Positions 16,275 through 52,686 of a stretch of DNA of 64,000 nt are shown here, one piece after another. Both the position numbers and the translations under genes were made by a program. The stretch's first letter is position 1. Each line of letters starts with the position of its first letter. The DNA comes from Siphonodentalium dalli (lineage: Eukaryota; Mollusca; Scaphopoda; Gadilida; Siphonodentaliidae), in NCBI GenBank assembly GCA_032622095.1, contig CP136062.1:13233710-13297709 (forward strand), read 5' to 3'. The notes beneath the pieces are model-generated. The model searched no databases and was not told the origin of the DNA. It saw nothing but the letters and a program-made list of their open reading frames with translations.

Positions 16275-16431
16275 CGATTGACTGTGCAAACATGAGATCA
16301 TGCTTCTTCTTCTTACGCTTTTAGGTTCGCTCTGAATTATTTTGGGCGGATTTAGGTTAGAAATATTGACCATAATACTGTCCCGCGGGTGTGGTAAGCA
16401 ATTCCATAGTATGCATGTATGTATGTATGTG
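16275..16431. other. Junction between the 87 bp and 38 bp arrays
   Basis: Unique sequence ending in a short (tatg)n tract (about 16412-16430) that abuts the first 38 bp unit. The tract shares tatgtatg with the satellite unit and could mark where the array began. Confidence 0.5.
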
Positions 16432-19400
16432 GTGATATGCTACGCCTATATTATGTATGAGACCCTGTGGTGATATGCTACGCCTATATTATGTATGAGA
16501 CCCTGTAGTGATATGATGCGCCTATATTATGTATGAGACCCTGTAGTGATATGATGCGCCTATATTATGTATGAGACCCTGTGGTGATATGATGCGCCTA
16601 TATTATGTATGAGACCCTGTGGTGATATGCTACGCCTATATTATGTATGAGACCCTGTAGTGATATGATGCGCCTATATTATGTATGAGACCCTGTGGTG
16701 ATATGCTACGCCTATATTATGGATGAGACCCTGTAGTGATATGATGCGCCTATATTATGTATGAGACCCTGTAGTGATATGATGCGCCTATATTATGTAT
16801 GAGACCCTGTAGTGATATGATGCGCCTATATTATGTATGAGACCCTGTGGTGATATGCTACGCCTATATTATGTATGAGACCCTGTGGTGATATGCTACG
16901 CCTATATTATGTATGAGACCCTGTGGTGATATGATGCGCCTATATTATGTATGAGACCCTGTAGTGATATGATGCGCCTATATTATGTATGAGACCCTGT
17001 AGTGATATGATGCGCCTATATTATGTATGAGACCCTGTGGTGATATGCTACGCCTATATTATGTATGAGACCCTGTAGTGATATGCTACGCCTATATTAT
17101 GGATGAGACCCTGTAGTGATATGATGCGCCTATATTATGTATGAGACCCTGTGGTGATATGATGCGCCTATATTATGTATGAGACCCTGTAGTGATATGA
17201 TGCGCATATATTATGTATGAGACCCTGTAGTGATATGCTACGCCTATATTATGTATGAGACCCTGTAGTGATATGATGCGCCTATATTATGTATGAGACC
17301 CTGTGGTGATATGATGCGCCTATATTATGTATGAGACCCTGTGGTGATATGCTACGCCTATATTATGTATGAGACCCTGTGGTGATATGATGCGCCTATA
17401 TTATGTATGAGACCCTGTAGTGATATGATGCGCCTATATTATGTATGAGACCCTGTGGTGATATGATGCGCCTATATTATGTATGAGACCCTGTAGTGAT
17501 ATGATGCGCCTATATTATGTATGAGACCCTGTAGTGATATGATGCGCCTATATTATGTATGAGACCCTGTGGTGATATGCTACGCATATATTATGTATGA
17601 GACCCTGTAGTGATATGCTACGCCTATATTATGTATGAGACCCTGTAGTGATATGATACGCCTATATTATGTATGAGACCCTGTAGTGATATGCTACGCC
17701 TATATTATGTATGAGACCCTGTAGTGATATGATGCGCCTATATTATGTATGAGACCCTGTAGTGATATGATGCGCCTATATTATGTATGAGACCCTGTGG
17801 TGATATGCTACGCATATATTATGTATGAGACCCTGTAGTGATATGCTACGCCTATATTATGTATGAGACCCTGTAGTGATATGCTACGCCTATATTATGT
17901 ATGAGACCCTGTAGTGATATGCTACGCCTATATTATGTATGAGACCCTGTAGTGATATGATGCGCCTATATTATGTATGAGACCCTGTAGTGATATGATG
18001 CGCCTATATTATGGATGAGACCCTGTCGTGATATGCTACGCATATATTATGTATGAGACCCTGTAGTGATATGATGCGCCTATATTATGTATGAGACCCT
18101 GTAGTGATATGCTACGCCTATATTATGGATGAGACCCTGTGGTGATATGATGCGCCTATATTATGTATGAGACCCTGTAGTGATATGATGCGCCTATATT
18201 ATGTATGAGACCCTGTAGTGATATGATGCGCCTATATTATGTATGAGACCCTGTAGTGATATGCTACGCCTATATTATGTATGAGACCCTGTCGTGATAT
18301 GCTACGCCTATATTATGTATGAGACCCTGTGGTGATATGCTACGCATATATTATGTATGAGACCCTGTAGTGATATGCTACGCCTATATTATGTATGAGA
18401 CCCTGTGGTGATATGATGCGCCTATATTATGTATGAGACCCTGTAGTGATATGATGCGCCTATATTATGTATGAGACCCTGTAGTGATATGCTACGCCTA
18501 TATTATGTATGAGACCCTGTAGTGATATGATGCGCCTATATTATGTATGAGACCCTGTAGTGATATGCTACGCCTATATTATGTATGAGACCCTGTAGTG
18601 ATATGCTACGCCTATATTATGTATGAGACCCTGTAGTGATATGCTACGCCTATATTATGTATGAGACCCTGTAGTGATATGATGCGCCTATATTATGTAT
18701 GAGACCCTGTAGTGATATGATGCGCCTATATTATGGATGAGACCCTGTCGTGATATGCTACGCATATATTATGTATGAGACCCTGTAGTGATATGATGCG
18801 CCTATATTATGTATGAGACCCTGTAGTGATATGCTACGCCTATATTATGGATGAGACCCTGTGGTGATATGATGCGCCTATATTATGTATGAGACCCTGT
18901 AGTGATATGATGCGCCTATATTATGTATGAGACCCTGTAGTGATATGATGCGCCTATATTATGTATGAGACCCTGTAGTGATATGCTACGCCTATATTAT
19001 GTATGAGACCCTGTCGTGATATGCTACGCCTATATTATGTATGAGACCCTGTGGTGATATGCTACGCATATATTATGTATGAGACCCTGTAGTGATATGC
19101 TACGCCTATATTATGTATGAGACCCTGTGGTGATATGATGCGCCTATATTATGTATGAGACCCTGTAGTGATATGATGCGCCTATATTATGTATGAGACC
19201 CTGTAGTGATATGATGCGCCTATATTATGTATGAGACCCTGTGGTGATATGATGCGCCTATATTATGTATGAGACCCTGTAGTGATATGATGCGCCTATA
19301 TTATGTATGAGACCCTGTAGTGATATGATGCGCCTATATTATGTATGAGACCCTGTAGTGATATGCTACGCATATATTATGTATGAGACCCTGTAGTGAT

Positions 19401-22400
19401 ATGCTACGCCTATATTATGTATGAGACCCTGTAGTGATATGATGCGCCTATATTATGTATGAGACCCTGTAGTGATATGATGCGCCTATATTATGTATGA
19501 GACCCTGTAGTGATATGCTACGCCTATATTATGTATGAGACCCTGTAGTGATATGCTACGCCTATATTATGTATGAGACCCTGTAGTGATATGATGCGCC
19601 TATATTATGTATGAGACCCTGTAGTGATATGATGCGCCTATATTATGTATGAGACCCTGTAGTGATATGCTACGCATATATTATGTATGAGACCCTGTAG
19701 TGATATGCTACGCCTATATTATGTATGAGACCCTGTGGTGATATGATGCGCCTATATTATGTATGAGACCCTGTAGTGATATGATGCGCCTATATTATGT
19801 ATGAGACCCTGTAGTGATATGATGCGCCTATATTATGTATGAGACCCTGTAGTGATATGCTACGCATATATTATGTATGAGACCCTGTAGTGATATGCTA
19901 CGCCTATATTATGTATGAGACCCTGTGGTGATATGATGCGCCTATATTATGTATGAGACCCTGTAGTGATATGATGCGCCTATATTATGTATGAGACCCT
20001 GTAGTGATATGATGCGCCTATATTATGTATGAGACCCTGTGGTGATATGATGCGCCTATATTATGTATGAGACCCTGTAGTGATATGATGCGCCTATATT
20101 ATGTATGAGACCCTGTAGTGATATGATGCGCCTATATTATGTATGAGACCCTGTAGTGATATGCTACGCATATATTATGTATGAGACCCTGTAGTGATAT
20201 GCTACGCCTATATTATGTATGAGACCCTGTAGTGATATGATGCGCCTATATTATGTATGAGACCCTGTAGTGATATGATGCGCCTATATTATGTATGAGA
20301 CCCTGTAGTGATATGCTACGCCTATATTATGTATGAGACCCTGTAGTGATATGCTACGCCTATATTATGTATGAGACCCTGTAGTGATATGATGCGCCTA
20401 TATTATGTATGAGACCCTGTAGTGATATGCTACGCCTATATTATGTATGAGACCCTGTAGTGATATGATGCGCCTATATTATGTATGAGACCCTGTAGTG
20501 ATATGATGCGCCTATATTATGTATGATACCCTGTCGTGATATGCTACGCCTATATTATGTATGAGACCCTGTGGTGATATGATGCGCCTATATTATGTAT
20601 GAGACCCTGTAGTGATATGATGCGCCTATATTATGTATGAGACCCTGTAGTGATATGATGCGCCTATATTATGTATGAGACCCTGTGGTGATATGATGCG
20701 CCTATATTATGTATGAGACCCTGTAGTGATATGATGCGCCTATATTATGTATGAGACCCTGTAGTGATATGATGCGCCTATATTATGTATGAGACCCTGT
20801 GGTGATATGCTACGCATATATTATGTATGAGACCCTGTAGTGATATGCTACGCCTATATTATGTATGAGACCCTGTAGTGATATGATGCGCCTATATTAT
20901 GTATGAGACCCTGTGGTGATATGCTACGCATATATTATGTATGAGACCCTGTAGTGATATGCTACGCCTATATTATGTATGAGACCCTGTAGTGATATGA
21001 TGCGCCTATATTATGTATGAGACCCTGTAGTGATATGCTACGCATATATTATGTATGAGACCCTGTAGTGATATGCTACGCCTATATTATGTATGAGACC
21101 CTGTAGTGATATGATGCGCCTATATTATGTATGAGACCCTGTAGTGATATGATGCGCCTATATTATGTATGAGACCCTGTAGTGATATGCTACGCCTATA
21201 TTATGTATGAGACCCTGTAGTGATATGCTACGCCTATATTATGTATGAGACCCTGTAGTGATATGATGCGCCTATATTATGTATGAGACCCTGTAGTGAT
21301 ATGCTACGCCTATATTATGTATGAGACCCTGTAGTGATATGATGCGCCTATATTATGTATGAGACCCTGTAGTGATATGATGCGCCTATATTATGTATGA
21401 TACCCTGTCGTGATATGCTACGCCTATATTATGTATGAGACCCTGTGGTGATATGATGCGCCTATATTATGTATGAGACCCTGTAGTGATATGATGCGCC
21501 TATATTATGTATGAGACCCTGTAGTGATATGATGCGCCTATATTATGTATGAGACCCTGTGGTGATATGATGCGCCTATATTATGTATGAGACCCTGTAG
21601 TGATATGATGCGCCTATATTATGTATGAGACCCTGTAGTGATATGATGCGCCTATATTATGTATGAGACCCTGTGGTGATATGCTACGCATATATTATGT
21701 ATGAGACCCTGTAGTGATATGCTACGCCTATATTATGTATGAGACCCTGTGGTGATATGATGCGCCTATATTATGTATGAGACCCTGTAGTGATATGATG
21801 CGCCTATATTATGTATGAGACCCTGTAGTGATATGATGCGCCTATATTATGTATGAGACCCTGTAGTGATATGATGCGCCTATATTATGTATGAGACCCT
21901 GTGGTGATATGCTACGCCTATATTATGTATGAGACCCTGTCGTGATATGCTACGCCTATGTTATGTATGATACCTTGTAGTGATATGATGCGCCTATATT
22001 ATGGATGAGACCCTGTAGTGATATGCTACGCCTATATTATGGATGAGACCCTGTAGTGATATGATGCGCCTATATTATGTATGAGACCCTGTAGTGATAT
22101 GCTACGCCTATATTATGTATGAGACCCTGTAGTGATATGCTACGCCTATATTATGTATGAGACCCTGTGGTGATATGATGCGCCTATATTATGTATGAGA
22201 CCCTGTGGTGATATGCTACGCATATATTATGTATGAGACCCTGTAGTGATATGCTACGCCTATATTATGTATGAGACCCTGTCGTGATATGATGCGCCTA
22301 TATTATGTATGAGACCCTGTAGTGATATGCTACGCCTATATTATGTATGAGACCCTGTAGTGATATGATGCGCCTATATTATGTATGAGACCCTGTAGTG

Positions 22401-25400
22401 ATATGATGCGCATATATTATGGATGAGACCCTGTAGTGATATGCTACGCCTATATTATGTATGAGACCCTGTAGTGATATGCTACGCCTATATTATGTAT
22501 GAGACCCTGTAGTGATATGCTACGCATATATTATGTATGAGACCCTGTAGTGATATGCTACGCCTATATTATGTATGAGACCCTGTGGTGATATGATGCG
22601 CCTATATTATGTATGAGACCCTGTGGTGATATGCTACGCATATATTATGTATGAGACCCTGTAGTGATATGCTACGCCTATATTATGTATGAGACCCTGT
22701 AGTGATATGATGCGCCTATATTATGTATGAGACCCTGTAGTGATATGATGCGCCTATATTATGTATGAGACCCTGTGGTGATATGCTACGCATATATTAT
22801 GTATGAGACCCTGTAGTGATATGCTACGCCTATATTATGTATGAGACCCTGTGGTGATATGCTACGCCTATATTATGTATGAGACCCTGTGGTGATATGC
22901 TACGCCTATATTATGTATGAGACCCTGTAGTGATATGATGCGCCTATATTATGTATGAGACCCTGTAGTGATATGATGCGCCTATATTATGTATGAGACC
23001 CTGTAGTGATATGATGCGCCTATATTATGTATGAGACCCTGTGGTGATATGCTACGCCTATATTATGTATGAGACCCTGTAGTGATATGATGCGCCTATA
23101 TTATGTATGAGACCCTGTGGTGATATGCTACGCCTATATTATGTATGAGACCCTGTAGTGATATGATGCGCCTATATTATGTATGAGACCCTGTAGTGAT
23201 ATGATGCGCCTATATTATGTATGAGACCCTGTGGTGATATGATGCGCCTATATTATGTATGAGACCCTGTGGTGATATGCTACGCCTATATTATGTATGA
23301 GACCCTGTAGTGATATGATGCGCCTATATTATGTATGAGACCCTGTAGTGATATGATGCGCCTATATTATGTATGAGACCCTGTGGTGATATGCTACGCC
23401 TATATTATGTATGAGACCCTGTCGTGATATGCTACGCCTATATTATGTATGAGACCCTGTAGTGATATGATGCGCCTATATTATGGATGAGACCCTGTAG
23501 TGATATGATGCGCCTATATTATGTATGAGACCCTGTAGTGATATGATGCGCCTATATTATGTATGAGACCCTGTCGTGATATGCTACGCCTATATTATGT
23601 ATGAGACCCTGTAGTGATATGCTACGCCTATATTATGTATGAGACCCTGTAGTGATATGATGCGCCTATATTATGTATGAGACCCTGTAGTGATATGCTA
23701 CGCCTATATTATGGATGAGACCCTGTAGTGATATGATGCGCCTATATTATGTATGAGACCCTGTCGTGATATGCTACGCCTATATTATGTATGAGACCCT
23801 GTAGTGATATGCTACGCCTATATTATGTATGAGACCCTGTAGTGATATGATGCGCCTATATTATGTATGAGACCCTGTAGTGATATGATGCGCCTATATT
23901 ATGTATGAGACCCTGTCGTGATATGCTACGCCTATATTATGTATGATACCCTGTCGTGATATGATGCGCCTATATTATGTATGAGACCCTGTAGTGATAT
24001 GATGCGCCTATATTATGGATGAGACCCTGTAGTGATAAGATGCGCCTATATTATGTATGAGACCCTGTCTTGATATGATGCGCCTATATTATGTATGAGA
24101 CCCTGTCGTGATATGATGCGCCTATATTATGGATGAGACCCTGTCGTGATATGCTACGCATATATTATGTATGAGACCCTGTCGTGATATGCTACGCATA
24201 TATTATGTATGAGACCCTGTAGTGATATGCTACGCCTATATTATGTATGAGACCCTGTAGTGATATGATGCGCCTATATTATGTATGAGACCCTGTCGTG
24301 ATATGATGCGCCTATATTATGTATGAGACCCTGTGGTGATATGCTACGCCTATATTATGGATGAGACCCTGTGGTGATATGCTACGCCTATATTATGTAT
24401 GAGACCCTGTAGTGATAAGATGCGCCTATATTATGTATGAGACCCTGTAGTGATAAGATGCGCCTATATTATGTATGAGACCCTGTAGTGATATGCTACG
24501 CCTATATTATGTATGAGACCCTGTAGTGATATGATGCGCCTATATTATGGATGAGACCCTGTAGTGATATGATGCGCCTATATTATGTATGAGACCCTGT
24601 CGTGATATGCTACGCCTATATTATGTATGAGACCCTGTAGTGATATGATGCGCCTATATTATGTATGAGACCCTGTCGTGATATGCTACGCCTATATTAT
24701 GTATGAGACCCTGTAGTGATATGATGCGCCTATATTATGTATGAGACCCTGTCGTGATATGATGCGCCTATATTATGTATGAGACCCTGTAGTGATATGC
24801 TACGCCTATATTATGTATGAGACCCTGTAGTGATATGATGCGCCTATATTATGGATGAGACCCTGTCGTGATATGCTACGCCTATATTATGGATGAGACC
24901 CTGTAGTGATATGATGCGCCTATATTATGTATGAGACCCTGTAGTGATATGATGCGCCTATATTATGTATGAGACCCTGTCGTGATATGCTACGCCTATA
25001 TTATGTATGAGACCCTGTAGTGATATGCTACGCCTATATTATGTATGAGACCCTGTAGTGATATGATGCGCCTATATTATGTATGAGACCCTGTAGTGAT
25101 ATGCTACGCCTATATTATGTATGAGACCCTGTAGTGATATGATGCGCCTATATTATGGATGAGACCCTGTCGTGATATGCTACGCCTATATTATGTATGA
25201 GACCCTGTGGTGATATGATGCGCCTATATTATGTATGAGACCCTGTAGTGATATGATGCGCCTATATTATGTATGAGACCCTGTGGTGATATGATGCGCC
25301 TATATTATGTATGAGACCCTGTAGTGATATGATGCGCCTATATTATGTATGAGACCCTGTCGTGATATGATGCGCCTATATTATGTATGAGACCCTGTCG

Positions 25401-28400
25401 TGATATGCTACGCCTATATTATGTATGAGACCCTGTGGTGATATGCTACGCCTATATTATGTATGAGACCCTGTAGTGATATGATGCGCCTATATTATGT
25501 ATGAGACCCTGTGGTGATATGCTACGCCTATATTATGTATGAGACCCTGTAGTGATATGATGCGCCTATATTATGTATGAGACCCTGTAGTGATATGATG
25601 CGCCTATATTATGGATGAGACCCTGTCGTGATATGATGCGCCTATATTATGTATGAGACCCTGTCGTGATATGCTACGCCTATATTATGTATGAGACCCT
25701 GTGGTGATATGCTACGCCTATATTATGTATGAGACCCTGTAGTGATATGATGCGCCTATATTATGTATGAGACCCTGTAGTGATATGCTACGCATATATT
25801 ATGTATGAGACCCTGTCGTGATATGCTACGCCTATATTATGGATAAGACCCTGTAGTGATATGATGCGCCTATATTATGTATGAGACCCTGTGGTGATAT
25901 GCTACGCATATATTATGTATGAGACCCTGTAGTGATATGATGCGCCTATATTATGTATGAGACCCTGTGGTGATATGATGCGCCTATATTATGTATGAGA
26001 CCCTGTAGTGATATGATGCGCATATATTATGTATGAGACCCTGTAGTGATATGATGCGCATATATTATGTATGAGACCCTGTAGTGATATGCTACGCCTA
26101 TATTATGTATGAGACCCTGTCGTGATATGATGCGCATATATTATGGATGAGACCCTGTGGTGATATGCTACGCATATATTATGGATGAGACCCTGTAGTG
26201 ATATGATGCGCCTATATTATGTATGAGACCCTGTGGTGATATGATGCGCCTATATTATGTATGAGACCCTGTAGTGATATGCTACGCATATATTATGTAT
26301 GAGACCCTGTAGTGATATGATGCGCATATATTATGTATGAGACCCTGTAGTGATATGCTACGCCTATATTATGTATGAGACCCTGTGGTGATATGATGCG
26401 CATATATTATGTATGAGACCCTGTGGTGATATGCTACGCATATATTATGTATGAGACCCTGTAGTGATATGATGCGCCTATATTATGTATGAGACCCTGT
26501 AGTGATATGATGCGCCTATATTATGTATGAGACCCTGTAGTGATATGATGCGCATATATTATGTATGAGACCCTGTAGTGATATGCTACGCATATATTAT
26601 GTATGAGACCCTGTCGTGATATGCTACGCATATATTATGTATGAGACCCTGTCGTGATATGACGCGCCTATATTATGTATGAGACCCTGTAGTGATATGC
26701 TACGCCTATATTATGTATGAGACCCTGTAGTGATATGCTACGCATATATTATGTATGAGACCCTGTCGTGATATGCTACGCATATATTATGTATGAGACC
26801 CTGTCGTGATATGCTACGCATATATTATGTATGAGACCCTGTAGTGATATGCTACGCATATATTATGTATGAGACCCTGTAGTGATATGCTACGCATATA
26901 TTATGTATGAGACCCTGTCGTGATATGCTACGCCTATATTATGGATGAGACCCTGTGGTGATATGATGCGCCTATATTATGGATGAGACCCTGTAGTGAT
27001 ATGATGCGCCTATATTATGTATGAGACCCTGTGGTGATATGATGCGCCTATATTATGTATGAGACCCTGTGGTGATATGCTACGCATATATTATGTATGA
27101 GACCCTGTAGTGATATGCTACGCCTATGTTATGTATGAGACCCTGTGGTGATATGATGCGCCTATATTATGTATGAGACCCTGTAGTGATATGATGCGCC
27201 TATATTATGTATGAGACCCTGTGGTGATATGATGCGCCTATATTATGTATGAGACCCTGTCGTGATATGCTACGCATATATTATGTATGAGACCCTGTAG
27301 TGATATGCTACGCATATGTTATGTATGAGACCCTGTGGTGATATGATGCGCCTATATTATGTATGAGACCCTGTAGTGATATGATGCGCCTATATTATGT
27401 ATGAGACCCTGTAGTGATATGATGCGCATATATTATGTATGAGACCCTGTAGTGATATGCTACGCCTATATTATGTATGAGACCCTGTAGTGATATGATG
27501 CGCATATATTATGTATGAGACCCTGTAGTGATATGCTACGCCTATATTATGTATGAGACCCTGTGGTGATATGATGCGCCTATATTATGTATGAGACCCT
27601 GTAGTGATATGATGCGCCTATATTATGTATGAGACCCTGTAGTGATATGATGCGCATATATTATGTATGAGACCCTGTAGTGATATGATGCGCCTATGTT
27701 ATGTATGAGACCCTGTAGTGATATGCTACGCCTATATTATGGATGAGACCCTGTAGTGATATGATGCGCCTATATTATGTATGAGACCCTGTCGTGATAT
27801 GCTACGCCTATATTATGTATGAGACCCTGTCGTGATATGCTACGCCTATATTATGTATGAGACCCTGTCGTGATATGCTACGCCTATATTATGTATGAGA
27901 CCCTGTCGTGATATGATGCGCCTATATTATGTATGAGACCCTGTAGTGATATGATGCGCCTATATTATGTATGAGACCCTGTCGTGATATGCTACGCCTA
28001 TATTATGTATGAGACCCTGTAGTGATATGATGCGCCTATATTATGTATGAGACCCTGTAGTGATATGATGCGCCTATATTATGGATGAGACCCTGTAGTG
28101 ATATGATGCGCCTATATTATGTATGAGACCCTGTCGTGATATGCTACGCCTATATTATGTATGAGACCCTGTAGTGATATGATGCGCCTATATTATGTAT
28201 GAGACCCTGTAGTGATATGATGCGCCTATATTATGTATGAGACCCTGTCGTGATATGCTACGCATATATTATGTATGAGACCCTGTAGTGATATGATGCG
28301 CCTATATTATGTATGAGACCCTGTAGTGATATGCTACGCCTATATTATGTATGATACCTTGTAGTGATATGATGCGCCTATATTATGTATGAGACCCTGT

Positions 28401-31400
28401 CGTGATATGCTACGCCTATATTATGTATGAGACCCTGTAGTGATATGCTACGCCTATATTATGGATGAGACCCTGTAGTGATATGATGCGCCTATATTAT
28501 GTATGAGACCCTGTGGTGATATGCTACGCCTATATTATGTATGAGACCCTGTAGTGATATGCTACGCCTATATTATGTATGAGACCCTGTAGTGATATGA
28601 TGCGCCTATATTATGTATGAGACCCTGTAGAGATATGCTACGCCTATATTATGTATGATACCTTGTAGTGATATGATGCGCCTATATTATGTATGAGACC
28701 CTGTCGTGATATGCTACGCCTATATTATGTATGAGACCCTGTAGTGATATGCTACGCCTATATTATGGATGAGACCCTGTAGTGATATGATGCGCCTATA
28801 TTATGTATGAGACCCTGTAGTGATATGATGCGCCTATATTATGTATGAGACCCTGTCGTGATATGCTACGCATATATTATGTATGAGACCCTGTCGTGAT
28901 ATGCTACGCCTATATTATGTATGAGACCCTGTCGTGATATGCTACGCCTATATTATGTATGAGACCCTGTAGTGATATGATGCGCCTATATTATGTATGA
29001 GACCCTGTAGTGATATGATGCGCCTATATTATGTATGAGACCCTGTAGTGATATGATGCGCCTATATTATGTATGAGACCCTGTAGTGATATGATGCGCC
29101 TATATTATGTATGAGACCCTGTCGTGATATGATGCGCCTATATTATGTATGAGACCCTGTAGTGATATGATGCGCCTATATTATGTATGAGACCCTGTCG
29201 TGATATGCTACGCCTATATTATGTATGAGACACTGTAGTGATATGCTACGCCTATATTATGTATGAGACCCTGTAGTGATATGATGCGCCTATATTATGT
29301 ATGAGACCCTGTCGTGATATGATGCGCCTATATTATGTATGAGACCCTGTAGTGATATGATGCGCCTATATTATGTATGAGACCCTGTAGTGATATGATG
29401 CGCCTATATTATGTATGAGACCCTGTCGTGATATGATGCGCCTATATTATGTATGAGACCCTGTAGTGATATGATGCGCCTATATTATGTATGAGACCCT
29501 GTCGTGATATGCTACGCCTATATTATGTATGAGACCCTGTAGTGATATGATGCGCCTATATTATGTATGAGACCCTGTAGTGATATGATGCGCCTATATT
29601 ATGTATGAGACCCTGTAGTGATATGATGCGCCTATATTATGTATGAGACCCTGTGGTGATATGATGCGCCTATATTATGTATGAGACCCTGTAGTGATAT
29701 GATGCGCATATATTATGTATGAGACCCTGTAGTGATATGATGCGCCTATATTATGTATGAGACCCTGTCGTGATATGCTACGCCTATATTATGTATGAGA
29801 CCCTGTAGTGATATGATGCGCCTATATTATGTATGAGACCCTGTAGTGATATGCTACGCCTATATTATGTATGAGACCCTGTAGTGATATGATGCGCCTA
29901 TATTATGTATGAGACCCTGTAGTGATATGCTACGCCTATGTTATGTATGAGACCCTGTCGTGATATGCTACGCCTATATTATGTATGAGACCCTGTAGTG
30001 ATATGATGCGCCTATATTATGTATGAGACCCTGTAGTGATATGATGCGCATATATTATGTATGAGACCCTGTAGTGATATGCTACGCCTATATTATGTAT
30101 GAGACCCTGTAGTGATATGCTACGCCTATATTATGGATGAGACCCTGTAGTGATATGATGCGCCTATATTATGTATGAGACCCTGTCGTGATATGCTACG
30201 CCTATATTATGTATGAGACCCTGTAGTGATATGATGCGCCTATATTATGTATGAGACCCTGTCGTGATATGCTACGCATATATTATGTATGAGACCCTGT
30301 AGTGATATGATGCGCCTATATTATGTATGAGACCCTGTCGTGATATGCTACGCCTATATTATGTATGAGACCCTGTAGTGATATGATGCGCCTATATTAT
30401 GGATGAGACCCTGTAGTGATATGATGCGCCTATATTATGTATGAGACCCTGTGGTGATATGCTACGCCTATATTATGTATGAGACCCTGTGGTGATATGA
30501 TGCGCCTATATTATGTATGAGACCCTGTAGTGATATGCTACGCCTATATTATGTATGAGACCCTGTCGTGATATGATGCGCCTATATTATGTATGAGACC
30601 CTGTAGTGATATGCTACGCCTATATTATGGATGAGACCCTGTAGTGATATGCTACGCCTATATTATGTATGAGACCCTGTCGTGATATGCTACGCCTATA
30701 TTATGTATGAGACCCTGTCGTGATATGCTACGCCTATATTATGTATGAGACCCTGTCGTGATATGCTACGCCTATAGTATGTATGAGACCCTGTAGTGAT
30801 ATGCTACGCCTATATTATGTATGAGACCCTGTAGTGATATGCTACGCCTATATTATGTATGAGACCCTGTCGTGATATGCTACGCCTATATTATGTATGA
30901 GACCCTGTAGTGATATGCTACGCCTATATTATGTATGAGACCCTGTAGTGATATGCTACGCCTATATTATGTATGAGACCCTGTAGTGATATGCTACGCC
31001 TATATTATGTATGAGACCCTGTCGTGATATGCTACGCCTATATTATGTATGAGACCCTGTCGTGATATGATGCGCCTATATTATGTATGAGACCCTGTCG
31101 TGATATGCTACGCCTATATTATGTATGAGACCCTGTAGTGATATGCTACGCCTATATTATGTATGAGACCCTGTGGTGATATGATGCGCCTATATTATGT
31201 ATGAGACCCTGTAGTGATATGCTACGCCTATATTATGTATGATACCCTGTGGTGATATGATGCGCCTATATTATGGATGAGACCCTGTAGTGATATGCTA
31301 CGCCTATATTATGTATGAGACCCTGTCGTGATATGCTACGCCTATATTATGTATGAGACCCTGTCGTGATATGCTACGCCTATATTATGTATGAGACCCT

Positions 31401-34400: not shown

Positions 34401-37400
34401 CTGTAGTGATATGATGCGCCTATGTTATGTATGAGACCCTGTGGTGATATGCTACGCATATATTATGGATGAGACCCTGTGGTGATATGCTACGCATATA
34501 TTATGTATGAGACCCTGTAGTGATATGCTACGCCTAAGTTATGTATGAGACCCTGTGGTGATATGCTACGCATATATTATGTATGAGACCCTGTAGTGAT
34601 ATGCTACGCCTATATTATGGATGAGACCCTGTGGTGATATGCTACGCCTATATTATGGATGAGACCCTGTAGTGATATGATGCGCCTATATTATGGATGA
34701 GACCCTGTGGTGATATGCTACGCCTATATTATGTATGATACCCTGTAGTGATATGATGCGCCTATATTATGGATGAGACCCTGTCGTGATATGCTACGCA
34801 TATATTATGTATGAGACCCTGTAGTGATATGCTACGCCTATGTTATGTATGAGACCCTGTGGTGATATGCTACGCCTATGTTATGTATGAGACCCTGTGG
34901 TGATATGCTACGCCTATATTATGTATGAGACCCTGTAGTGATATGATGCGCCTATATTATGTATGAGACCCTGTAGTGATATGATGCGCCTATATTATGT
35001 ATGAGACCCTGTAGAGATATGCTACGCCTATATTATGTATGAGACCCTGTAGTGATATGATGCGCCTATATTATGTATGAGACCCTGTAGTGATATGATG
35101 CGCCTATATTATGTATGAGACCCTGTAGTGATATGCTACGCCTATATTATGTATGAGACCCTGTAGTGATATGATGCGCCTATATTATGTATGAGACCCT
35201 GTAGTGATATGCTACGCCTATATTATGTATGAGACCCTGTAGTGATATGCTACGCCTATATTATGTATGAGACCCTGTAGTGATATGATGCGCCTATATT
35301 ATGTATGAGACCCTGTGGTGATATGATGCGCCTATATTATGGATGAGACCCTGTCGTGATATGCTACGCATATATTATGGATGAGACCCTGTCGTGATAT
35401 GCTACGCATATATTATGTATGAGACCCTGTAGTGATATGCTACGCATATATTATGTATGAGACCCTGTAGAGATATGCTACGCCTATATTATGTATGAGA
35501 CCCTGTAGTGATATGATGCGCCTATATTATGTATGAGACCCTGTAGTGATATGATGCGCCTATATTATGGATGAGACCCTGTCGTGATATGCTACGCCTA
35601 TATTATGTATGAGACCCTGTAGTGATATGATGCGCCTATATTATGTATGAGACCCTGTAGTGATATGATGCGCCTATATTATGTATGAGACCCTGTAGTG
35701 ATATGCTACGCCTATATTATGTATGAGACCCTGTAGTGATATGCTACGCCTATATTATGTATGAGACCCTGTAGTGATATGATGCGCCTATATTATGTAT
35801 GAGACCCTGTAGTGATATGATGCGCCTATATTATGTATGAGACCCTGTCGTGATATGCTACGCATATATTATGTATGAGACCCTGTAGTGATATGCTACG
35901 CCTATATTATGTATGAGACCCTGTAGTGATATGATGCGCCTATATTATGTATGAGACCCTGTAGTGATATGCTACGCCTATATTATGGATGAGACCCTGT
36001 AGTGATATGATGCGCCTATATTATGTATGAGACCCTGTAGTGATATGATGCGCCTATATTATGTATGAGACCCTGTAGTGATATGATGCGCCTATATTAT
36101 GTATGAGACCCTGTAGTGATATGATGCGCCTATATTATGTATGAGACCCTGTAGTGATATGATGCGCCTATATTATGTATGAGACCCTGTAGTGATATGA
36201 TGCGCCTATATTATGTATGAGACCCTGTAGTGATATGATGCGCCTATATTATGTATGAGACCCTGTAGTGATATGCTACGCCTATATTATGTATGAGACC
36301 CTGTAGTGATATGATGCGCCTATATTATGGATGAGACCCTGTAGTGATATGCTACGCCTATATTATGTATGAGACCCTGTAGTGATATGCTACGCCTATA
36401 TTATGTATGAGACCCTGTAGTGATATGATGCGCCTATATTATGTATGAGACCCTGTAGTGATATGCTACGCCTATATTATGGATGAGACCCTGTAGTGAT
36501 ATGATGCGCCTATATTATGTATGAGACCCTGTAGTGATATGATGCGCCTATATTATGTATGAGACCCTGTAGTGATATGCTACGCCTATATTATGTATGA
36601 GACCCTGTAGTGATATGATGCGCCTATATTATGTATGAGACCCTGTAGTGATATGATGCGCCTATATTATGTATGAGACCCTGTAGTGATATGATGCGCC
36701 TATATTATGTATGAGACCCTGTAGTGATATGCTACGCCTATATTATGTATGAGACCCTGTAGTGATATGATGCGCCTATATTATGTATGAAACCCTGTAG
36801 TGATATGCTACGCCTATATTATGTATGAGACCCTGTAGTGATATGATGCGCCTATGTTATGTATGAGACCCTGTGGTGATATGCTACGCATATATTATGG
36901 ATGAGACCCTGTGGTGATATGCTACGCATATATTATGTATGAGACCCTGTAGTGATATGCTACGCCTAAGTTATGTATGAGACCCTGTGGTGATATGCTA
37001 CGCATATATTATGTATGAGACCCTGTAGTGATATGCTACGCCTATATTATGGATGAGACCCTGTGGTGATATGCTACGCCTATATTATGGATGAGACCCT
37101 GTAGTGATATGATGCGCCTATATTATGGATGAGACCCTGTGGTGATATGCTACGCCTATATTATGTATGATACCCTGTAGTGATATGATGCGCCTATATT
37201 ATGGATGAGACCCTGTCGTGATATGCTACGCATATATTATGTATGAGACCCTGTAGTGATATGCTACGCCTATGTTATGTATGAGACCCTGTGGTGATAT
37301 GCTACGCCTATGTTATGTATGAGACCCTGTGGTGATATGCTACGCCTATATTATGTATGAGACCCTGTAGTGATATGCTACGCCTATATTATGTATGAGA

Positions 37401-40400
37401 CCCTGTAGTGATATGATGCGCCTATATTATGTATGAGACCCTGTAGTGATATGCTACGCCTATATTATGTATGAGACCCTGTAGTGATATGCTACGCCTA
37501 TATTATGTATGAGACCCTGTAGTGATATGATGCGCCTATATTATGTATGAGACCCTGTAGTGATATGATGCGCCTATATTATGTATGAGACCCTGTGGTG
37601 ATATGCTACGCCTATATTATGTATGAGACCCTGTGGTGATATGATGCGCCTATATTATGGATGAGACCCTGTCGTGATATGCTACGCATATATTATGGAT
37701 GAGACCCTGTCGTGATATGCTACGCATATATTATGTATGAGACCCTGTAGTGATATGCTACGCATATATTATGTATGAGACCCTGTAGAGATATGCTACG
37801 CCTATATTATGTATGAGACCCTGTAGTGATATGATGCGCCTATATTATGTATGAGACCCTGTAGTGATATGATGCGCCTATATTATGTATGAGACCCTGT
37901 AGTGATATGATGCGCCTATATTATGGATGAGACCCTGTCGTGATATGCTACGCCTATATTATGTATGAGACCCTGTAGTGATATGATGCGCCTATATTAT
38001 GTATGAGACCCTGTAGTGATATGATGCGCCTATATTATGTATGAGACCCTGTAGTGATATGCTACGCCTATATTATGTATGAGACCCTGTAGTGATATGC
38101 TACGCCTATATTATGTATGAGACCCTGTAGTGATATGATGCGCCTATATTATGTATGAGACCCTGTAGTGATATGATGCGCCTATATTATGTATGAGACC
38201 CTGTCGTGATATGCTACGCATATATTATGTATGAGACCCTGTAGTGATATGCTACGCCTATATTATGTATGAGACCCTGTAGTGATATGATGCGCCTATA
38301 TTATGTATGAGACCCTGTAGTGATATGCTACGCCTATATTATGTATGAGACCCTGTAGTGATATGATGCGCCTATATTATGTATGAGACCCTGTAGTGAT
38401 ATGCTACGCCTATATTATGTATGAGACCCTGTAGTGATATGATGCGCCTATATTATGTATGAGACCCTGTAGTGATATGCTACGCCTATATTATGTATGA
38501 GACCCTGTAGTGATATGCTACGCCTATATTATGTATGAGACCCTGTAGTGATATGATGCGCCTATATTATGGATGAGACCCTGTAGTGATATGATGCGCC
38601 TATATTATGGATGAGACCCTGTAGTGATATGATGCGCCTATATTATGTATGAGACCCTGTAGTGATATGATGCGCCTATATTATGTATGAGACCCTGTAG
38701 TGATATGATGCGCCTATATTATGTATGAGACCCTGTAGTGATATGATGCGCCTATATTATGTATGAGACCCTGTAGTGATATGATGCGCCTATATTATGT
38801 ATGAGACCCTGTAGTGATATGCTACGCCTATATTATGTATGAGACCCTGTAGTGATATGATGCGCCTATATTATGTATGAGACCCTGTAGTGATATGCTA
38901 CGCCTATATTATGGATGAGACCCTGTAGTGATATGATGCGCCTATATTATGTATGAGACCCTGTAGTGATATGATGCGCCTATATTATGTATGAGACCCT
39001 GTAGTGATATGCTACGCCTATATTATGTATGAGACCCTGTAGTGATATGATGCGCCTATATTATGTATGAGACCCTGTAGTGATATGATGCGCCTATATT
39101 ATGTATGAGACCCTGTAGTGATATGATGCGCCTATATTATGTATGAGACCCTGTAGTGATATGCTACGCCTATATTATGTATGAGACCCTGTAGTGATAT
39201 GATGCGCCTATATTATGTATGAGACCCTGTAGTGATATGATGCGCCTATATTATGTATGAGACCCTGTAGTGATATGATGCGCCTATATTATGTATGAGA
39301 CCCTGTAGTGATATGCTACGCCTATATTATGTATGAGACCCTGTAGTGATATGATGCGCCTATATTATGTATGAGACCCTGTAGTGATATGATGCGCCTA
39401 TATTATGTATGAGACCCTGTCGTGATATGCTACGCATATATTATGTATGAGACCCTGTAGTGATATGCTACGCCTATATTATGTATGAGACCCTGTAGTG
39501 ATATGATGCGCCTATATTATGTATGAGACCCTGTAGTGATATGCTACGCCTATATTATGGATGAGACCCTGTAGTGATATGATGCGCCTATATTATGTAT
39601 GAGACCCTGTCGTGATATGCTACGCCTATATTATGGATGAGACCCTGTGGTGATATGCTACGCATATATTATGTATGAGACCATGTCGTGATATGCTACG
39701 CCTATATTATGTATGAGACCCTGTAGTGATATGCTACGCCTATATTATGTATGAGACCCTGTGGTGATATGCTACGCCTATATTATGGATGAGACCCTGT
39801 CGTGATATGATGCGCCTATATTATGTATGAGACCCTGTAGTGATATGATGCGCCTATATTATGTATGAGACCCTGTAGTGATATGCTACGCCTATATTAT
39901 GTATGAGACCCTGTAGTGATATGCTACGCCTATATTATGGATGAGACCCTGTCGTGATATGATGCGCCTATATTATGTATGAGACCCTGTAGTGATATGC
40001 TACGCCTATATTATGTATGATACCCTGTAGTGATATGCTACGCCTATATTATGGATGAGACCCTGTCGTGATATGCTACGCATATATTATGTATGAGACC
40101 CTGTAGTGATATGCTACGCATATATTATGTATGAGACCCTGTAGTGATATGCTACGCATATATTATGGATGAGACCCTGTAGTGATATGCTACGCCTATA
40201 TTATGGATGAGACCCTGTGGTGATATGCTACGCATATATTATGTATGAGACCCTGTGGTGATATGCTACGCCTATATTATGGATGAGACCCTGTGGTGAT
40301 ATGCTACGCCTATATTATGGATGAGACCCTGTGGTGATATGCTACGCATATATTATGTATGAGACCCTGTAGTGATATGATGCGCCTATATTATGGATGA

Positions 40401-43400
40401 GACCCTGTGGTGATATGCTACGCATATATTATGTATGAGACCCTGTAGTGATATGATGCGCCTATATTATGGATGAGACCCTGTGGTGATATGCTACGCA
40501 TATATTATGTATGAGACCCTGTAGTGATATGCTACGCATATATTATGTATGAGACCCTGTAGTGATATGCTACGCCTATATTATGTATGAGACCCTGTCG
40601 TGATATGCTACGCCTATATTATGTATGAGACCCTGTAGTGATATGATGCGCCTATATTATGGATGAGACCCTGTGGTGATATGTTACGCCTATATTATGG
40701 ATGAGACCCTGTAGTGATATGCTACGCATATATTATGTATGAGACCCTGTAGTGATATGATGCGCCTATATTATGGATGAGACCCTGTGGTGATATGCTA
40801 CGCATATATTATGGATGAGACCCTGTGGTGATATGATGCGCCTATATTATGGATGAGACCCTGTGGTGATATGCTACGCATATATTATGTATGAGACCCT
40901 GTGGTGATATGCTACGCCTATATTATGTATGAGACCCTGTAGTGATATGCTACGCCTATATTATGGATGAGACCCTGTGGTGATATGCTACGCCTATATT
41001 ATGGATGAGACCCTGTGGTGATATGATGCGCCTATATTATGTATGAGACCCTGTGGTGATATGATGCGCCTATATTATGTATGAGACCCTGTGGTGATAT
41101 GCTACGCCTATATTATGGATGAGACCCTGTAGTGATATGATGCGCCTATATTATGTATGAGACCCTGTCGTGATATGATGCGCCTATATTATGTATGAGA
41201 CCCTGTAGTGATATGCTACGCCTATATTATGTATGAGACCCTGTAGTGATATGATGCGCCTATATTATGTATGAGACCCTGTAGTGATATGATGCGCATA
41301 TATTATGGATGAGACCCTGTGGTGATATGATGCGCCTATATTATGGATGAGACCCTGTAGTGATATGATGCGCCTATATTATGTATGAGACCCTGTAGTG
41401 ATATGCTACGCATATATTATGGATGAGACCCTGTGGTGATATGATGCGCCTATATTATGGATGAGACCCTGTGGTGATATGCTACGCCTATATTATGTAT
41501 GAGACCCTGTAGAGATATGCTACGCCTATATTATGTATGAGACCCTGTAGTGATATGATGCGCCTATATTATGTATGAGACCCTGTAGTGATATGCTACG
41601 CATATATTATGGATGAGACCCTGTCGTGATATGATGCGCCTATATTATGTATGAGACCCTGTCGTGATATGCTACGCCTATATTATGTATGAGACCCTGT
41701 AGTGATATGATGCGCCTATATTATGTATGAGACCCTGTCGTGATATGCTACGCCTATATTATGTATGAGACCCTGTAGTGATATGCTACGCATATATTAT
41801 GTATGATACCTTGTAGTGATATGCTACGCCTATATTATGTATGAGACCCTGTCGTGATATGCTACGCCTATATTATGTATGAGACCCTGTAGTGATATGC
41901 TACGCCTATATTATGGATGAGACCCTGTAGTGATATGATGCGCCTATATTATGGATGAGACCCTGTCGTGATATGCTACGCATATATTATGTATGATACC
42001 TTGTAGTGATATGCTACGCCTATATTATGTATGAGACCCTGTCGTGATATGCTACGCCTATATTATGTATGAGACCCTGTAGTGATATGATGCGCCTATA
42101 TTATGTATGAGACCCTGTAGTGATATGCTACGCCTATATTATGGATGAGACCCTGTAGTGATATGATGCGCCTATATTATGTATGATACCTTGTAGTGAT
42201 ATGCTACGCCTATATTATGTATGAGACCCTGTCGTGATATGCTACGCCTATATTATGTATGAGACCCTGTAGTGATATGCTACGCCTATATTATGTATGA
42301 GACCCTGTAGTGATATGCTACGCCTATATTATGTATGAGACCCTGTAGTGATATGCTACGCCTATATTATGTATGAGACCCTGTCGTGATATGCTACGCA
42401 TATATTATGTATGAGACCCTGTAGTGATATGCTACGCCTATATTATGTATGAGACCCTGTAGTGATATGATGCGCCTATATTATGTATGAGACCCTGTAG
42501 TAATATGCTACGCCTATATTATGGATGAGACCCTGTAGTGATATGATGCGCCTATATTATGTATGAGACCCTGTAGTGATATGCTACGCATATATTATGT
42601 ATGATACCTTGTAGTGATATGCTACGCCTATATTATGTATGAGACCCTGTCGTGATATGCTACGCCTATATTATGTATGAGACCCTGTAGTGATATGCTA
42701 CGCCTATATTATGGATGAGACCCTGTAGTGATATGCTACGCCTATATTATGGATGAGACCCTGTCGTGATATGCTACGCATATATTATGGATGAGACCCT
42801 GTAGTGATATGATGCGCCTATATTATGTATGAGACCCTGTCGTGATATGCTACGCCTATATTATGTATGAGACCCTGTAGTGATATGCTACGCCTATATT
42901 ATGTATGAGACCCTGTAGTGATATGCTACGCCTATATTATGTATGAGACCCTGTAGTGATATGCTACGCCTATATTATGTATGAGACCCTGTCGTGATAT
43001 GCTACGCCTATATTATGTATGAGACCCTGTCGTGATATGCTACGCCTATATTATGTATGAGACCCTGTAGTGATATGCTACGCCTATATTATGGATGAGA
43101 CCCTGTAGTGATATGCTACGCCTATATTATGTATGAGACCCTGTCGTGATATGCTACGCCTATATTATGTATGAGACCCTGTCGTGATATGCTACGCATA
43201 TATTATGTATGAGACCCTGTAGTGATATGCTACGCATATATTATGGATGAGACCCTGTAGTGATATGCTACGCATATATTATGTATGAGACCCTGTAGTG
43301 ATATGATGCGCCTATATTATGTATGAGACCCTGTCGTGATATGATGCGCCTATATTATGTATGAGACCCTGTAGTGATATGATGCGCCTATATTATGTAT

Positions 43401-46400
43401 GAGACCCTGTAGTGATATGATGCGCCTATATTATGTATGAGACCCTGTAGTGATATGATGCGCCTATATTATGTATGAGACCCTGTGGTGATATGATGCG
43501 CCTATATTATGTATGAGACCCTGTGGTGATATGCTACGCATATATTATGGATGAGACCCTGTCGTGATATGCTACGCCTATATTATGTATGAGACCCTGT
43601 CGTGATATGCTACGCATATATTATGGATGAGACCCTGTAGTGATATGCTACGCCTATATTATGTATGAGACCCTGTAGTGATATGCTACGCCTATATTAT
43701 GTATGAGACCCTGTAGTGATATGATGCGCCTATATTATGTATGAGACCCTGTAGTGATATGATGCGCCTATATTATGTATGAGACCCTGTAGTGATATGC
43801 TACGCCTATATTATGGATGAGACCCTGTAGTGATATGATGCGCCTATATTATGTATGAGACCCTGTAGTGATATGCTACGCCTATATTATGTATGAGACC
43901 CTGTAGTGATATGATGCGCCTATATTATGTATGAGACCCTGTAGTGATATGATGCGCCTATATTATGGATGAGACCCTGTAGTGATATGCTACGCCTATA
44001 TTATGTATGAGACCCTGTAGTGATATGATGCGCCTATATTATGTATGAGACCCTGTAGTGATATGCTACACATATATTATGTATGAGACCCTGTAGTGAT
44101 ATGATGCGCCTATATTATGTATGAGACCCTGTAGTGATAAGATGCGCCTATATTATGTATGAGACCCTGTCGTGATATGATGCGCCTATATTATGTATGA
44201 GACCCTGTAGTGATATGATGCGCCTATATTATGTATGAGACCCTGTAGTGATATGCTACGCCTATATTATGTATGAGACCCTGTAGTGATATGATGCGCC
44301 TATATTATGGATGAGACCCTGTAGTGATATGCTACGCCTATATTATGTATGAGACCCTGTAGTGATATGCTACGCCTATATTATGTATGAGACCCTGTAG
44401 TGATATGATGCGCCTATATTATGTATGAGACCCTGTCGTGATATGATGCGCCTATATTATGTATGAGACCCTGTAGTGATATGATGCGCCTATATTATGG
44501 ATGAGACCCTGTAGTGATATGCTACGCCTATATTATGTATGAGACCCTGTAGTGATATGCTACGCCTATATTATGTATGAGACCCTGTAGTGATATGATG
44601 CGCCTATATTATGTATGAGACCCTGTAGTGATATGATGCGCCTATATTATGTATGAGACCCTGTAGTGATATGCTACGCCTATATTATGTATGAGACCCT
44701 GTAGTGATATGCTACGCATATATTATGTATGAGACCCTGTAGTGATATGATGCGCCTATATTATGTATGAGACCCTGTAGTGATATGCTACGCCTATATT
44801 ATGTATGAGACCCTGTAGTGATATGCTACGCATATATTATGGATGAGACCCTGTAGTGATATGCTACGCATATATTATGTATGAGACCCTGTAGTGATAT
44901 GCTACGCCTATATTATGTATGAGACCCTGTCGTGATATGCTACGCCTATATTATGGATGAGACCCTGTAGTGATATGATGCGCCTATATTATGTATGAGA
45001 CCCTGTAGTGATATGATGCGCCTATATTATGTATGAGACCCTGTAGTGATATGATGCGCCTATATTATGTATGAGACCCTGTCGTGATATGATGCGCCTA
45101 TATTATGTATGAGACCCTGTCGTGATATGCTACGCCTATATTATGTATGAGACCCTGTCGTGATATGCTACGCCTATATTATGTATGAGACCCTGTCGTG
45201 ATATGCTACGCCTATATTATGTATGAGACCCTGTGGTGATATGATGCGCCTATATTATGTATGAGACCCTGTAGTGATATGCTACGCCTATATTATGGAT
45301 GAGACCCTGTAGTGATATGATGCGCCTATATTATGTATGAGACCCTGTAGTGATATGATGCGCCTATATTATGTATGAGACCCTGTAGTGATATGATGCG
45401 CCTATATTATGTATGAGACCCTGTCGTGATATGATGCGCCTATATTATGTATGAGACCCTGTCGTGATATGATGCGCCTATATTATGTATGAGACCCTGT
45501 AGTGATATGCTACGCATATATTATGTATGAGACCCTGTAGTGATATGATGCGCCTATATTATGTATGAGACCCTGTAGTGATATGATGCGCCTATATTAT
45601 GTATGAGACCCTGTAGTGATATGATGCGCCTATATTATGTATGAGACCCTGTAGTGATATGCTACGCCTATATTATGTATGAGACCCTGTCGTGATATGC
45701 TACGCCTATATTATGTATGAGACCCTGTCGTGATATGATGCGCCTATATTATGTATGAGACCCTGTGGTGATATGCTACGCCTATATTATGGATGAGACC
45801 CTGTGGTGATATGATGCGCCTATATTATGTATGAGACCCTGTAGTGATATGATGCGCCTATAGTATGTATGAGACCCTGTAGTGATATGATGCGCCTATA
45901 TTATGTATGAGACCCTGTAGTGATATGATGCGCCTATATTATGTATGAGACCCTGTAGTGATATGCTACGCCTATATTATGTATGAGACCCTGTCGTGAT
46001 ATGATGCGCCTATATTATGTATGAGACCCTGTAGTGATATGATGCGCCTATATTATGTATGAGACCCTGTCGTGATATGATGCGCCTATATTATGTATGA
46101 GACCCTGTAGTGATATGATGCGCCTATATTATGTATGAGACCCTGTGGTGATATGCTACGCCTATATTATGGATGAGACCCTGTGGTGATATGATGCGCC
46201 TATATTATGTATGAGACCCTGTAGTGATATGATGCGCCTATATTATGTATGAGACCCTGTAGTGATATGATGCGCCTATATTATGTATGAGACCCTGTAG
46301 TGATATGATGCGCATATATTATGTATGAGACCCTGTAGTGATATGCTACGCCTATATTATGTATGAGACCCTGTAGTGATATGATGCGCCTATATTATGT

Positions 46401-48716
46401 ATGAGACCCTGTAGTGATATGCTACGCCTATATTATGTATGAGACCCTGTAGTGATAAGATGCGCCTATATTATGTATGAGACCCTGTAGTGATATGATG
46501 CGCATATATTATGTATGAGACCCTGTAGTGATATGCTACGCCTATATTATGTATGAGACCCTGTCGTGATATGCTACGCCTATATTATGTATGAGACCCT
46601 GTCGTGATATGATGCGCCTATATTATGGATGAGACCCTGTCGTGATATGCTACGCCTATATTATGTATGAGACCCTGTAGTGATATGCTACGCCTATATT
46701 ATGTATGAGACCCTGTGGTGATATGCTACGCCTATATTATGGATGAGACCCTGTGGTGATATGCTACGCCTATATTATGTATGAGACCCTGTGGTGATAT
46801 GCTACGCCTATATTATGTATGAGACCCTGTCGTGATATGCTACGCCTATATTATGTATGAGACCCTGTAGTGATATGCTACGCCTATATTATGTATGAGA
46901 CCCTGTAGTGATATGCTACGCCTATATTATGTATGAGACCCTGTGGTGATATGCTACGCCTATATTATGTATGAGACCCTGTCGTGATATGATGCGCCTA
47001 TATTATGTATGAGACCCTGTGGTGATATGCTACGCCTATATTATGGATGAGACCCTGTGGTGATATGCTACGCCTATATTATGTATGAGACCCTGTAGTG
47101 ATATGCTACGCCTATATTATGTATGAGACCCTGTCGTGATATGATGCGCCTATATTATGGATGAGACCCTGTGGTGATATGCTACGCCTATATTATGTAT
47201 GAGACCCTGTAGTGATATGCTACGCCTATATTATGTATGAGACCCTGTCGTGATATGATGCGCCTATATTATGTATGAGACCCTGTAGAGATATGCTACG
47301 CCTATATTATGTATGAGACCCTGTAGTGATATGCTACGCCTATATTATGGATGAGACCCTGTCGTGATATGCTACGCCTATATTATGTATGAGACCCTGT
47401 AGTGATATGCTACGCCTATATTATGTATGAGACCCTGTAGTGATATGCTACGCCTATATTATGTATGAGACCCTGTAGTGATATGATGCGCCTATATTAT
47501 GTATGAGACCCTGTAGTGATATGATGCGCCTATATTATGTATGAGACCCTGTCGTGATATGCTACGCCTATATTATGTATGAGACCCTGTCGTGATATGA
47601 TGCGCCTATATTATGTATGAGACCCTGTCGTGATATGCTACGCCTATATTATGTATGAGACCCTGTAGTGATATGATGCGCCTATATTATGTATGAGACC
47701 CTGTCGTGATATGATGCGCCTATATTATGTATGAGACCCTGTAGTGATATGCTACGCCTATATTATGTATGAGACCCTGTAGTGATATGATGCGCCTATA
47801 TTATGTATGAGACCCTGTAGAGATATGCTACGCCTATATTATGTATGAGACCCTGTAGTGATATGCTACGCCTATATTATGTATGAGACCCTGTAGTGAT
47901 ATGCTACGCCTATATTATGTATGAGACCCTGTAGTGATATGCTACGCCTATATTATGTATGAGACCCTGTCGTGATATGCTACGCCTATATTATGTATGA
48001 GACCCTGTAGTGATATGCTACGCCTATATTATGTATGAGACCCTGTAGTGATATGCTACGCCTATATTATGTATGAGACCCTGTAGTGATATGCTGCGCC
48101 TATATTATGTATGAGACCCTGTAGTGATAAGATGCGCCTATATTATGTATGAGACCCTGTGGTGATATGCTACGCCTATATTATGGATGAGACCCTGTAG
48201 TGATATGCTACGCCTATATTATGTATGAGACCCTGTAGTGATAAGATGCGCCTATATTATGTATGAGACCCTGTGGTGATATGCTACGCCTATATTATGT
48301 ATGAGACCCTGTCGTGATATGCTACGCCTATATTATGTATGAGACCCTGTCGTGATATGCTACGCATATATTATGTATGAGACCCTGTAGTGATATGATG
48401 CGCCTATATTATGTATGAGACCCTGTAGTGATATGCTACGCCTATATTATGTATGAGACCCTGTCGTGATATGATGCGCCTATATTATGTATGAGACCCT
48501 GTAGTGATATGCTACGCCTATATTATGTATGAGACCCTGTAGTGATATGATGCGTCTATATTATGGATGAGACCCTGTAGTGATATGATGCGCCTATATT
48601 ATGGATGAGACCCTGTAGTGATATGATGCGCCTATATTATGGATGAGACCCTGTAGTGATATGATGCGCCTATATTATGTATGCGACCCTGTAGAGATAT
48701 GCTACGCCTATATTAT
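16432..48716 (+). repeat. 38 bp satellite array, 849 complete units plus a 23 bp partial unit
   Basis: Consensus, positions 1-20: gtgatatg[c/a]t[a/g]cgc[c/a]tatat; positions 21-38: tatg[t/g]atgagaccctgt[a/g/c]. The gaccctgt landmark at 16461 recurs at 24023, 30027, 35005, 40021 (as taccctgt), 44049 and 48685, all exact multiples of 38 from the first. There is thus no net indel over 32.2 kb. Variation is substitutional at sites 9+11 (linked), 15, 25 and 38, plus rare changes such as gataccct, accttg, tagagat and ataaga. Larger blocks are duplicated inside the array (offsets of 5, 8, 19, 23 and 61-64 units). No frame above 60 codons survives in any of six frames. One CpG per unit. Function unknown; satellite DNA of heterochromatic or centromeric type is possible. 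Confidence 0.98.
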
Positions 48717-51930: not shown

Positions 51931-52486
51931 TTATCTGGACACAAGCTATTTATAAATAATCACTTTAAATTTGACCAAATATATTAGTTTTTGAAAAATA
52001 AATCATCTTAAAATTCCTTAAATGCCATGATGATTTAATTCTTCTGAAAACTTGTTTCTCGGTAAAATCACAATGACACAAAATGACTGCGAAAAATCGA
52101 AAATTGAAAAGTATTTGGCTCACTGCCGATAGATAGGAGGATTCCTGTAAGAAAATTCTCACTAAACTTTTTGATCGCATGTTCATGATTCCCAGTTGAC
52201 ATGGAGACTAACTGTATATTTTCCTCTTCCAAAATTCTGCTAATAATGTTTAATTTTGATCAAAAGTTTATTAATGTTTTGTTTCGTCCTTGACATACGT
52301 TCGGGAAAAACCCACTCGATCTACAGATCTGCAGATCGATCGATATTATTCGGACGGGAATGCAGCGAGTTGTTTTCGGCTCAAGTCTTGTCTGTTATTT
52401 GAGAACATATAGTTCCTTGTTTCAATCGTATTTTAAGGGCGAATATGTCTTTAAAATCAATATTTAACAATCGATGGCATAATTAT
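51931..52486. other. Intergenic DNA, nothing recognised
   Basis: AT-rich; one 73-codon reverse frame without features. A cluster of gatc-rich palindromic words lies at about 52318-52346. Confidence 0.4.
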
Positions 52487-52639: not shown

Positions 52640-52686
52640 AAATATTATTCATTTTATGTTAAATAATACAAAACAGTCAACAGAGA

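Follow-up and report, generated by a model that had tools for sequence, protein, structure and literature searches.

A 32-kb single-locus minisatellite of 849 units of exactly 38 bp in Siphonodentalium dalli, with a constancy of unit length close to neutral expectation

Introduction

Tandem arrays with units of 9–100 bp are known as minisatellites (PMC2599865; this article, like the others cited below, is drawn on in excerpt). The closest precedent for constancy of unit length is MSY1 (DYF155S1) on the human Y chromosome – an array of 48–118 units of 25 bp with 75% A+T, whose internal structure stems from base-substitution variants arranged in blocks, and for which the excerpted text reports that units of non-standard length were not observed. 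A hairpin is predicted in its unit, and conversion tracts at the locus were inferred to be no longer than one unit (PMC2599865). In the partial texts on minisatellite unit length and exchange that were surveyed, MSY1 was the sole direct precedent found. Autosomal hypervariable minisatellites of the MS32/CEB1 type have units within the 9–100 bp range, carry highly interspersed variant repeats and are GC-rich (PMC2599865).

Here we describe an array that resembles MSY1 in its short unit, its excess of A+T over G+C, its internal structure of base-substitution variants and its absence of units of deviant length (none of 849). It differs in its dimensions – 849 units of 38 bp, with about 60% A+T – and in that its variants are interspersed, its unit holds no conserved hairpin and it lies on contig C2. 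With the MS32/CEB1-type loci it shares unit size and interspersed variants, though not their richness in GC. Classical hypervariable minisatellite loci are usually far shorter. The array is probably a single-locus minisatellite of the VNTR type that expanded fairly recently and has evolved neutrally by in-register exchange, and its perfect unit length is only mildly unusual, being near the outcome expected from neutral turnover where an array has few mutations.

An array in perfect register

The window – the whole stretch of 64,000 nucleotides analysed here, to which all coordinates without a contig name refer – corresponds to C2:13233710-13297709 in a genome of 2.23 Gb in 9 contigs. The array occupies positions 16428–48716 on the plus strand, as delimited by TRF, a rigid parse and a gapped wraparound parse, and consists of 849 complete units and a partial one of 27 nt, with the consensus TGTAGTGATATGCTACGCCTATATTATGTATGAGACCC. 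TRF assigns to this interval a period of 38, 849.7 copies, 94% matches and 0% indels. Cut rigidly from 16428, it yields 849 units of 60 distinct types, each with at most five mismatches to the consensus; wraparound dynamic programming, with gaps permitted, gives 30872 matches, 1417 mismatches, no insertions and no deletions. Neither parse finds a single unit of any length other than 38 bp, and as the gapped one opened no gap, compensating indels between checkpoints are excluded. The preliminary description, which had found six checkpoint offsets to be multiples of 38 and proposed a parse into units by dynamic programming, is thereby borne out: all six offsets are confirmed as exact multiples and fall in register, and its 'no net indel' can be strengthened to no indel at all. 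It was also right that the 17-bp array of the same window holds indels (26 or 18 events, depending on which of two gap costs is applied).

On the left, a short TATG-rich tract (16410–16427, plus strand), recognised by reading the sequence, directly precedes the first unit. The right edge (48652–48716, plus strand) comprises the last whole unit, with a change at column 33 found in no other unit, and the 27-nt partial unit, beyond which the sequence is unrelated. As to a coding role, no stop-to-stop open reading frame of at least 90 aa is listed within the array; nor does any part of the window match an Rfam family at gathering score.

A single locus in a repeat-rich neighbourhood

Genome-wide there are 601 exact matches to a 26-mer of the unit, all 601 of them in the window, against none in 100 shuffles, and a degenerate 35-mer allowing up to three mismatches has 849 matches in the genome, all in the window and all on the plus strand. 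A search for the unit elsewhere, suggested by the preliminary description, thus returns nothing outside the window at up to three mismatches, so that the array is a single locus and not a member of a dispersed satellite family; a dispersed repeat family is ruled out at that threshold by both searches. Classical centromeric or pericentromeric satellites form families at many loci and on a megabase scale. Classical satellite DNA is accordingly rejected for this one 32-kb locus, which has instead, in the one haplotype analysed, the properties of a minisatellite or VNTR: a tandem unit within the 9–100 bp range (38 bp, 849 copies), one locus only at up to three mismatches (849 of 849 matches) and interspersed variant units, with 60 unit types and an autocorrelation that is weak and dies away past some 20 units.

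The surroundings are themselves repetitive. A dense cluster of nine arrays, with units of 12, 22, 37, 32, 47, 87, 38, 78 and 17 bp, spans 12106–61054, and tandem content reaches 73% in the window, against 7% in the two 10-kb flanks and 6% in the median of 33 sampled pieces, of which 13 were taken at round coordinates and 20 pseudo-randomly. Since tandem arrays of period at least 6 make up 16766 of 138000 sampled bases, they can be regarded as ordinary constituents of this genome. The telomere-type repeat TTAGGG is also abundant, its five-fold repeat having 1973 matches on the plus and 5394 on the minus strand.

Up to about 48 kb, GC skew over the arrays is positive; farther right it turns strongly negative within the 17-bp array (53394–61054, 451 copies), whose plus strand is strongly C-rich. 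The latter contains a near-exact duplication at an offset of 1731 bp, starting near 53994, and several of its indels recur at this spacing, which makes them one event copied. At 52461–52665 lies an inverted repeat, perhaps foldback or MITE-like, with 89-nt arms, 88% complementary, and a 27-nt spacer. Some 10 kb from the 38-bp array, an uninterrupted frame of 327 aa (5207–6190) has Pfam matches to a RING finger, which passes the cut-off, and to a TRAF-type zinc finger, which falls short of it; the other four of the five frames put to Pfam, from 22 listed in the window, had no match.

Variants, block duplications and exchange

Relative to the consensus, the units carry 25 distinct minor substitution alleles, of which 11 occur in one unit and three in two; common alleles are found at columns 4, 13, 15, 19 and 29, and two units differ on average at 2.14 positions. 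Columns 13 and 15 covary, with C..A or A..G in 845 of 849 units and neither pairing in the remaining four. This main variant replaces CTA by ATG immediately after ATATG, and could reflect, in place of two substitutions, a single templated and length-neutral change that copied the ATG just before it. The only CpG of the consensus (columns 16–17) has an invariant C and a G altered in just one of 849 units; being nearly unaltered, it gives no sign of methylation-driven decay.

Variants are recombined within units. All four gametes are present in each of the 10 pairs of common columns, and |D'| falls from 1.00 at 2 bp to 0.66 at 4–6 bp, with lower but uneven values farther apart: 0.31–0.33 at 9, 11 and 15 bp (pairs involving column 4), 0.03 at 10 bp (columns 19 and 29) and 0.03 at 25 bp. 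For columns 4, 13, 19 and 29, r2 averages 0.018 at distances under 38 bp and does not exceed 0.0042 in any bin farther out. The four gametes, together with this decay within 38 bp, point to exchange breakpoints inside units or to recurrent mutations, which could add to the recombined variants.

The array also contains block duplications. Its longest exact internal repeat, of 786 bp (20091–21750, plus strand), has copies starting at 20091 and 20965, an offset of 874 bp or 23 units. Another block duplication, offset by 64 units, lies at 34402–39189 on the plus strand (coordinates derived from unit indices), in which identical unit types form runs of 14 and 10 starting from unit indices 473 and 525, with a run of 12 at a lag of 62 between them. 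The longest such runs in the whole array number 20 (lag 23), 17 (lag 19), 14 (lag 64), 14 (lag 21) and 12 (lag 62) units, compared with at most seven in three shuffles. A higher-order repeat of note was not found: identity of unit type is slightly higher at short lags, and even the best value, 0.19 at lag 3, stands against a mean of 0.139.

Because typical accurate long reads are shorter than the array, one may ask whether an assembler or polisher regularised or mis-sized it, either by collapse or by smoothing that erased rare indels. This is quite unlikely. No word of 800 bp occurs twice in the array, its longest exact repeat being the 786-bp one, so that reads of several kilobases can be placed uniquely; moreover, indels have been retained in other arrays of the same assembly, and the 38-bp array itself keeps 11 substitution alleles confined to single units.

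Under neutral evolution by in-register exchange, the array would have grown and shrunk by gain and loss of blocks of units – at offsets including 19, 21, 23, 62 and 64 units – while its variants would have been mixed by short-tract gene conversion or by crossing-over with breakpoints within units. Such exchange moves whole multiples of 38 bp or leaves length unaltered, and hence never yields an odd-sized unit; this would need a fresh indel mutation, of which about 2 to 3.5 would be expected and none would have arisen or survived. The preliminary description had offered a choice between a very young array homogenised by whole-unit exchange and a constraint on unit length. The former is favoured by the single locus, the few substitutions, the 14 of 25 alleles confined to one or two units and the block duplications. 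Its wording, however, holds only in part: blocks of units have indeed been duplicated, but the units are not near-identical (2.1 differences per pair on average) and the variants are also recombined within them.

Is the absence of indels unexpected?

How surprising it is to find no indel depends on the rate at which indels accompany substitutions. Published indel:substitution ratios, as given in the excerpts used, include about 0.10 for non-tandem-repeat indels in a human pedigree (PMC12240836), 0.136 in mutation accumulation in Daphnia obtusa (PMC12926508) and 0.225 for introns between two Drosophila species (PMC1534069). Beside 25 substitutions, ratios of 0.09–0.136 predict some 2 to 3.5 indels, and the probability of none is 0.30, 0.116, 0.041 and 0.006 at ratios of 0.05, 0.09, 0.136 and 0.225, respectively; these values take 25 as the number of substitution origins, which is a minimum, repeat origins of common alleles meaning more substitutions and making zero indels less likely. 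For the 14 rarest alleles alone, the probability is 0.30 at a ratio of 0.09 and 0.17 at 0.136.

In neutral simulations of an 849-unit array, considering only snapshots with 20–30 substitution alleles, indels were absent from 14 of 117, 8 of 119, 4 of 119 and 2 of 105 under the same four ratios, snapshots within a run being non-independent. Initial simulations with low mutation input had produced too few alleles and were retuned. Simulated diversity, at about 1.9 differences per unit pair, comes near the observed 2.14, but the simulations yield about seven singletons against 11 observed, so the equilibrium model is not exact. In a separate simulation at a ratio of 0.14, the four settings with about 23–25 alleles gave no-indel fractions of 0.00, 0.00, 0.04 and 0.04. 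Across ratios of roughly 0.09–0.14, the probability of zero indels comes to about 0.03–0.12.

Other arrays of the genome offer an empirical yardstick. Thirty-three arrays with units of at least 10 bp and at least four copies, overlaps removed, were compared from the window, the two flanks and the 33 sampled pieces. The 32 others together hold 134 indel and 730 substitution alleles, whence a probability of 0.015 for no indel among 25, although these pooled arrays are nearly all short, heterogeneous and in many cases more diverged than the 38-bp array. Of these others, 19 have 10 or more substitution alleles, and three of the 19 are free of indels at the gap cost used, although in one of the three (22-bp unit, 12426–13155) lowering the gap cost reveals an insertion and a deletion that compensate each other.

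The most comparable array, with a 63-bp unit, was met by random sampling on contig C3, one of the 33 sampled pieces lying wholly within it; the 23 kb read there (C3:5468716-5491715) is array throughout. Nine of 16 further probes fall within it (5450001 to 5520001), those at 5440001 and 5540001 lie outside, and the first exact unit is at 5444703, so that, if continuous, it is about 75 kb or more and probably exceeds the 38-bp array. Like the latter, it is a very long minisatellite of low divergence with few indel alleles (two, beside 33 substitution alleles, in the 23 kb) and with all four gametes in every pair of common columns (15 of 15, in 226 exact 63-bp units). Unlike it, it contains a variant unit of 62 bp, the product of one deletion, in 72 of 366 units, and has exact genome matches on both strands (608 plus and 177 minus, with positions for the first 100 listed). 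With this one control array, the counts of indel alleles, none of 25 as opposed to two against 33, do not differ (Fisher, P = 0.51).

Zero indels therefore lies at the edge of the neutral expectation and not far outside it – expected, or a mild excess, nominally somewhat below expectation with P about 0.015 to 0.12. The generalisation that satellites of this length normally show indels fits the more diverged 17-bp array (12.5% mismatches) and applies less to arrays of low divergence.

Could unit length be constrained?

Selection on unit length, for example through one protein bound per unit or through units kept in helical phase, would accord with the 849 units without exception, with the nominal P of 0.015 against the pooled local arrays and with the 17 of 38 columns that are invariant in all units. 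Yet 38 bp at 10.5 bp per turn makes 3.62 turns, which places neighbouring units on different faces, so that a putative per-unit protein would lack helical phasing; the invariant columns lie scattered, with a longest run of four (columns 25–28), as expected of a young array; the unit has no second locus in the genome at up to three mismatches; and the other long array carries a unit shorter by 1 bp in 72 of 366 units. Selection of this kind is thus very unlikely.

A hairpin in each unit, guiding exchange as has been proposed for human MSY1, might fix the length as well, variant-length units never having been observed at that locus according to the excerpts (PMC2599865). The consensus does fold, but marginally: its GTAG/CTAC stem reaches −1.9 kcal/mol, and 10 of 200 dinucleotide shuffles fold equally well. 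The perfect 4-bp stem is kept in just 245 of 849 units; for the common ATG variant no fold is predicted, and compensatory changes are absent. Dimers and tetramers show no folding advantage over repeats of shuffled units, and for a real three-unit stretch 183 and 145 of 200 shuffles, on the two strands, fold as well or better. A stem-breaking variant in about half of the units largely refutes this constraint, which we regard as barely credible.

It is also conceivable, though highly improbable, that short-tract exchange actively removes units of the wrong length, for instance by repairing looped heteroduplexes to 38 bp. What leaves room for such length proofreading is that zero indels is nominally a little less than expected (P roughly 0.015 to 0.12); the 62-bp units of the 63-bp array argue that any such process is not general.

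The suggestion that unit length is constrained is, in sum, not supported: only about 2 to 3.5 indels were to be expected, the 63-bp array has two to 33 substitution alleles, the unit makes 3.6 helical turns and its hairpin is not conserved, while the nominal P of 0.015 remains. An inferred length constraint is not needed, the mismatches coming down to 25 distinct substitution alleles.

Concluding remarks

The array, probably a minisatellite that turned over neutrally by in-register exchange, offers a map of variants across 849 units, assembled as one piece, on which models of minisatellite growth could draw. Length proofreading, if true, would show how some arrays hold register over tens of kilobases.
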